From positions 144,051 through 208,050 of the forward strand of contig OPYK01000002.1 of the NCBI GenBank assembly GCA_900343135.1: a DNA stretch of 64,000 nt, given 5' to 3'. Shown here in pieces: positions 33,284-33,382 of the stretch. The notes under the pieces were generated by a model, which saw only the letters and a list, made by a program, of their open reading frames with translations, did no database searches and was not told the DNA's origin. Numbering within the stretch: position 1 is the stretch's first letter; every line of letters begins with the position of its first letter. The DNA is from Atopobium massiliense. Lineage in GTDB: Bacteria; Actinomycetota; Coriobacteriia; Coriobacteriales; Atopobiaceae. Made by a program: the position numbers and the translations under genes.

Positions 33284-33349
33284 TGGCTGGCTGGCTGGCT
33301 GGCTGGCTGGCTGGCTGGCTGGCTGGCTGGCTGGCTGGCTGGCTGGCTG
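33284..33349. repeat. Tetranucleotide repeat (GGCT)16
   Basis: Sixteen exact GGCT units at 33285-33348, plus one flanking matching base on each side. On the minus strand, the sense strand of the downstream gene, it reads (AGCC)16. It begins 5 bp after the predicted -10 box and therefore forms the first part of the predicted transcript, about 120 bp before the ATG at 33161. Confidence 0.98.
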
Positions 33350-33353
33350 ATGA

Positions 33354-33382
33354 ATTGTGCGCGAATAGTCATAACTTGTCAA
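33354..33382 (-). promoter_or_regulatory. Predicted promoter of the beta-helix surface gene
   Basis: Minus strand TTGACA (33377-33382), 17-bp spacer, CACAAT (33354-33359). The -35 is consensus and the spacing ideal; the -10 matches four of six. The tetranucleotide repeat begins directly downstream at the expected start site. Confidence 0.6.

Follow-up and report, generated by a model that had tools for sequence, protein, structure and literature searches.

At the pil1 locus of Streptococcus gallolyticus, a 38-aa leader ORF with 22 GCAGA repeats is followed by a terminator (-18.7 kcal/mol) ahead of pilA (PMC3894217). According to that account, a change in repeat number shifts the leader stop codon from 39-49 nt away to 4 nt before the hairpin or inside it, and transcription rises in a translation-dependent manner when the stop is near the hairpin, a control proven by mutation (PMC3894217). 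Where the stop of an isolate lay at a distance of at least 28 nt, the profile is described as mixed and mostly low, and stops immediately before or inside the hairpin go with high expression (PMC3894217). Further described cases are uspA2 of Moraxella catarrhalis, which has an AGAT tract upstream and mRNA levels up to 3.37-fold different between tract lengths (PMC7302503), and nadA, for which upstream TAAA tracts set the spacing of a protein site to the core promoter (PMC2791445). Here, we compare with these systems a tetranucleotide tract that lies ahead of the gene for a secreted-looking protein, P0001, in a 64-kb window (the whole stretch of DNA analysed, 64,000 nt) of Atopobium massiliense.

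Tract, promoter candidates and terminator

33284-33349, minus strand: tetranucleotide tract, read as (AGCC)16.5 in the direction of the gene and as (TGGC)16.5 on the plus strand
33354-33382, minus strand: promoter candidate P1, TTGACA-17-CACAAT, predicted +1 near 33347, at the tract start
33411-33439, minus strand: second promoter candidate (P2), TAGCTA-17-TATAAT, with its +1 predicted near 33404, ahead of the leader ATG
33454-33426, minus strand: third promoter candidate, TTTACA-17-TATACA, predicted start near 33419
33202-33238, minus strand: predicted intrinsic terminator, 16-bp stem, 5-nt loop and five T, -26.0 kcal/mol
33541-33571, minus strand: terminator-like hairpin after the upstream DUF5648 gene, with similar hairpins upstream of paralogs
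30879-33161, minus strand: P0001, secreted protein of 760 aa; the N terminus is signal-like, beta strands recur and DUF5648 lies at the C terminus
33159-33266, minus strand: predicted helix of a stretch near 33266-33257 with the gene ribosome-binding site, in the minimum-energy fold only

Tandem Repeats Finder gave the tract as period 4, 16.5 copies and a 100% match over 66 bases in the one assembly, so the long tetranucleotide tract of the original prediction is borne out; the repeat named there as (GGCT)16 is real, with AGCC in 16.5 copies as the unit on the gene strand and GGCT belonging to the plus strand. It is the sole period-4 run of at least 14 nt in the window, which has zero homopolymers of at least 9 nt, and an independent-bases estimate puts the chance of such a run, 66 nt long, in 64 kb at about 5e-33. 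No period-4 tract was found in 111,682 further bases. Across the genome (1.55 Mb, 16 contigs, 95.5% complete), the (AGCC)5 pattern, which covers runs of at least 20 nt, matches at the tract alone (12 overlapping matches), and of the 140 family genomes the present one alone has (AGCC)6, the other 139 being without an AGCC tract at 24 nt. Among the named hits listed, the nearest to the UvrB of this genome is that of Olsenella phocaeensis (68%), in keeping with an Atopobiaceae-like coriobacterium. The DNA flanking the tract had zero matches among plasmid records, as did the tract-plus-flank pattern in viral_contigs and genome_contigs, sets from which the genome itself is possibly excluded.

On the minus strand, the parts follow in the order upstream-gene hairpin (33571-33541), promoter candidates, tract, terminator (33238-33202), ribosome site and ATG (33161). 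The -10 element of P1 ends five bases ahead of the AGCC run, and this promoter, which had been predicted 5 bp before the tract, was confirmed at 33382-33354 as a moderately strong one: an equally good site occurs in 4.1% of 318 400-nt stretches of the window. Scored with E. coli frequencies, P1 reaches 10.95 (the best in 33162-33560), P2 9.21 and P2's neighbour 8.52. P2 and its neighbour lie upstream of the leader ATG, and P1, further downstream and overlapping this ATG, outscores both. Over 30000-37000 we counted 6 promoter-like sites, below the 12.7 of shuffled sequence. The tract is downstream of the P1 -10 element and so outside any -35/-10 spacer, the position that a porA-type tract occupies; likewise, the ten best predicted promoter sites include none immediately past the tract, where a nadA-type arrangement has its core promoter. 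A further site, TTTACA-18-TTTTAT at 33224-33195, scores 8.14 against a background median of 7.49 and sits inside the terminator hairpin.

The predicted terminator ends 40 nt ahead of the gene ATG and, among 15 gene upstream regions scanned, is the sole strong one found to separate a start codon from a candidate promoter. Strong terminator-like hairpins also occur in two others of the 15, with -14.6 and -21.3 kcal/mol, at 164 and 216 nt ahead of the start, and both lie upstream of their genes' tract-bearing promoters. Since the terminator stands between tract and gene, a message started at P1 would have to pass it, and the tract cannot be the simple start of the gene message that it had been taken for.

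The whole leader is more stably folded than 200 shuffles (z -3.81), and in the minimum-energy fold the partner stretch of the gene ribosome site sits just upstream of the terminator hairpin. By predicted energies, tract and leader fold independently (-13.8 + -37.4 = -51.2 kcal/mol). Hence, the tract is predicted not to pair with the leader, which makes a direct RNA switch improbable; we dropped the idea that tract RNA pairs with the terminator, since the energies simply add. An Rfam scan of the leader gave no family and one sub-threshold chance match. Separately, upstream of DUF5648 paralogs we repeatedly find a hairpin of the GCGCTGCC type with GTTTTAGTGG after it (L047, L053 and 33541-33571 of the window), and the two together are probably a terminator module shared by these paralogs.

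The middle of P0001 is likely a beta-helix, as had been proposed: the short strands repeat, and Foldseek put a PL6 alginate lyase first and a pectate lyase third. These matches are suggestive only, with a best E of 0.063 and none at E <= 0.001, and the single-sequence structure model is weak (mean pLDDT 49.5). Orthologues of the N-terminal 600 aa were found in none of the other 139 family genomes (140 searched, self only), and relatives of P0001 in viral_contigs were likewise none. DUF5648 has 21 matches in the genome, and the gene upstream of P0001 (33729-36008) is among the DUF5648 genes. Directly upstream of the latter lie genes of a Tn916-like conjugative element (DUF961, FtsK-like and Rep_trans; 36440-52996 of the window, with tet(M) at 51062-52996), inside which are also an rRNA adenine dimethylase and an ISL3 transposase; this insertion may have cut the DUF5648 gene off from its promoter. 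Elsewhere in the window (24503-24665), a 17-bp unit containing TTGACG is repeated 9.6 times between the genes for a FAD-dependent protein and a GntR regulator.

Tracts in the genome and family, and mismatch repair

We found 12 poly-G/C tracts of at least 9 nt in the genome (13 overlapping matches) and seven poly-T/A tracts (10 matches). By inspection, 12 of 12 poly-G tracts are inside a gene for a secreted-looking protein or no more than about 260 nt ahead of one; the proteins concerned number 11, with a hydrophobic N-terminal stretch in a crude hydropathy check. The tracts are distributed as follows:

Poly-G in -35/-10 spacers, all before DUF5648 proteins: C8:123441 (spacer 18), C9:5296 (17), C10:4692 (18)
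Poly-G within ORFs, close to the 5' end or deeper: C4:1858, C7:99255, C8:18449, C9:7381, C10:27984, C11:24975
Poly-G in upstream regions: C10:7695, C11:24386, C14:83036
Poly-T/A in spacers: C8:74224 (18), C13:35192 (17), C6:57689 (16; absent from the scripted list and taken from the sequence)
Other poly-T/A: C8:96177, tRNA-end-like by eye; C9:179773, ORF interior; C8:213249, 19 nt before a lipoprotein-like ORF; C12:47675, upstream of a DUF5648 gene, with no clear -10

Two of these loci stand out individually. At C9:7381-7389 (L153), a C9 tract lies in an ORF whose N terminus is signal-like; the ORF ends 55 codons past the tract and is followed by a DUF5648 frame, and this gene is possibly in an off state or otherwise broken. 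At C10:7695-7703 (L156), a G9 tract lies seven bases past a promoter-like site found by eye (TTGCCG-17-GATAAT) and thus at the predicted start site, as does the AGCC tract under P1.

In the family, 23 of 140 genomes, from 13 of 35 genera, have the spacer pattern TTGA / at least 8 G / TANNNT, with 32 matches at 31 sites, compared with three matches for the reversed control; examples are L207, L208, L211, L216, L220 and L221, along with the three spacer tracts of the present genome. Of the 30 loci examined (29 sites), 25 show a spacer length of 15-20 nt. Judged by eye, a signal-peptide-like protein comes after about 14 of the 29 sites but not after the other 15 or so. These poly-G spacers are of the homopolymer phase-variation type described for porA, fetA and opc (PMC2791445), and are probably phase-variable promoters family-wide. 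Among the matches listed from open-licence papers, none treats phase variation in Atopobiaceae or Coriobacteriia. Poly-T spacer promoters were rejected as a family-wide feature, having just two matches in 140 genomes (vs 0 in controls). Also rejected was the idea that the relatives' poly-G-controlled proteins are homologues of P0001 (none by phmmer, best blastp E 0.039).

Searches of the genome for MutS_V and NucS_C gave no match for either, with control searches positive in 11 of 14 and 7 of 14 genomes, respectively. All Coriobacteriia analysed in a published survey are reported to be without MutS and NucS (PMC5290159). The absence of both matches agrees with that report, and unrepaired slippage is therefore plausible.

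The leader ORF and its possible action

33250-33372, minus strand: leader ORF of 40 aa with QPAS repeats, starting at the ATG at 33372 and reading through the tract

Two starts read into the tract, one ATG (33372) and one TTG. Past the tract, each of the three frames has its own stop, at 33250, 33270 and 33278, which are 11, 31 and 39 nt before the terminator stem, and at the assembled tract length the ORF is in frame with the nearest of these (33250, 11 nt). Hence, the original prediction, that the tract would alter the leader rather than the reading frame, was too strong: an ATG-started ORF of 40 codons crosses the tract and its frames end at three distances from the terminator. What stands of the overall picture is a long perfect tetranucleotide tract that separates a promoter candidate from the gene for a secreted protein; other surface genes of this genome have tracts in their control regions, and MutS and NucS were not found. 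What that picture overlooked is the terminator at 33238-33202 and the ORF.

The ribosome site of the leader ORF is weak (-5.0 kcal/mol, where 27 reference genes have a median of -7.0), which is worse than about three-quarters of these genes and is equalled by 9.8% of 2462 ATGs. TAAGG sits 16 nt before the leader ATG; this register was striking at first and was set aside, as it occurs at 2 of 2462 ATGs, about chance level. An ORF running by chance through a stop-free tract is not rare.

Our favoured reading, held tentatively, is a contingency locus: slippage in the tract would control P0001 from the transcribed leader, most likely via attenuation by the leader ORF. The genomic setting speaks for a contingency locus, as the 12 poly-G tracts all accompany genes for secreted-looking proteins and neither MutS_V nor NucS_C gave a match. 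The tract, the ORF, its three stop positions, the predicted terminator and the order of these parts are directly observed; we infer length variation, transcription from upstream of the ATG, leader translation and attenuation. RNA would start upstream of the leader ATG, at P2 or a neighbouring site, and the repeat number would set the frame of the 40-codon ORF. In the assembled phase, one of three, the ribosome would halt 11 nt before the terminator and hinder its folding, so that polymerase would enter the gene; in the other two phases it would halt 31 or 39 nt away and the terminator would work. The chief evidence against leader-ORF attenuation is P1 and the weak leader ribosome site. Since P1 scores best and overlaps the leader ATG, the ORF would be untranslated in RNA started there. 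Also counting against attenuation are the 11-nt stop, which falls between the two classes of pil1, the chance-level TAAGG register and the fact that an ORF of this kind is not rare.

P1 leads to another reading, rather unlikely in our judgement, by which RNA starts at P1, the tract is its untranslated first 64-66 nt and tract length grades promoter escape, RNA stability or terminator read-through, as for uspA2. P1 being the best-scoring promoter of the region agrees with this, as do the up to 3.37-fold differences in uspA2 mRNA across tract lengths (PMC7302503). However, a graded untranslated leader leaves the -26 kcal/mol terminator unexplained, the predicted fold has no pairing between tract and leader, and P1 is equalled in 4.1% of 400-nt stretches.

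We consider unlikely a broader form of the attenuation reading, in which a three-state attenuator evolved independently to the pil1 plan in a coriobacterium lacking known mismatch repair, RNA from P2 senses repeat number modulo 3, RNA from P1 senses absolute length, and the locus is one unit of a genome-wide contingency set acting on secreted DUF5648 and other surface proteins.

Less probable again is that the tract belongs to a separate short transcript (a small RNA or peptide) between two terminators and that P0001 has its own promoter near 33224-33195. Terminators at 33541-33571 and 33238-33202 do flank the promoter candidates, the site at 33224-33195 scores above the background median and Rfam gave no match of note; however, that promoter is unremarkable and lies within the terminator hairpin, and this reading would leave unexplained why so long a tract stands right ahead of a surface gene. 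A nadA-like role, with the tract spacing an upstream protein site from a core promoter downstream of it, is very doubtful: TAAA tracts act in this way upstream of nadA (PMC2791445), but none of the ten best promoter sites is directly downstream of the AGCC tract, the nearest being in the terminator, and no regulator or operator for such a role was found. Slightly more improbable still is that the tract regulates nothing and is a neutral microsatellite or an assembly expansion; where MutS and NucS are absent, repeats may be tolerated, and a single assembly is the basis here, but other period-4 tracts (at least 14 nt) are absent from the window and the 111,682 further bases, and the position in a leader ahead of a terminator is specific. 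Least credible is an active product of the plus strand, the 54-aa hydrophobic peptide MLLV(WLAG)n, since its ORF (33272-33436) is open but has no good SD (-3.1 kcal/mol, equalled by 25% of ATGs) and the repeat yields the hydrophobicity in any frame.

If attenuation by the leader ORF proves true, a rarely described switch, in which a slippage-set leader stop opens or closes a terminator, exists outside streptococci, and it occurs in a lineage reported to be without both known mismatch-repair systems (PMC5290159). This would suggest that Atopobiaceae-like bacteria vary their surface via many tracts, and it would bear on bacterial life with hosts and on strain-level variation hidden by short-read assemblies.

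Comparison with described systems

Gardnerella, also an actinobacterium, has variable homopolymers that are mostly upstream of ORFs and often at surface-protein genes (PMC11287997). It differs in belonging to another class of the phylum, and that account, as drawn on here, describes homopolymers only and no leader attenuator (PMC11287997). Spacer homopolymers of the porA/fetA/opc type (PMC2791445) are matched in the present genome by three poly-G and three poly-T/A tracts; the AGCC tract itself, unlike these, is outside a promoter spacer. As at uspA2, a tetranucleotide tract lies upstream of a surface gene, here one for a secreted-looking protein. Unlike uspA2 as described (PMC7302503), the locus has a leader ORF and a terminator.

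Attenuation at pil1 is proven by variants and mutants (PMC3894217), and at the present locus it is a prediction from sequence. The repeat unit here is AGCC, whereas that of pil1 is GCAGA, in a Firmicute; no frame here enters the hairpin, the nearest stop being 11 nt before it; and a higher-scoring promoter candidate starts inside the leader ORF. Other predicted parts agree: the leader ORFs are of 38 aa in pil1 and 40 aa here, a premature terminator (predicted here) lies between leader ORF and surface gene, and the distance from stop to hairpin follows the repeat number modulo 3 (here 11, 31 or 39 nt, as read from the frames). As in pil1, and in pil3, a promoter (here a candidate), a leader ORF (here putative) whose repeat unit is not a multiple of three, a terminator with a T run and a surface gene follow one another in that order. 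Hence, because the anatomy is the same as that of pil1 except for the nearest stop at 11 nt, we rate attenuation by the leader ORF first and a graded untranslated leader second.
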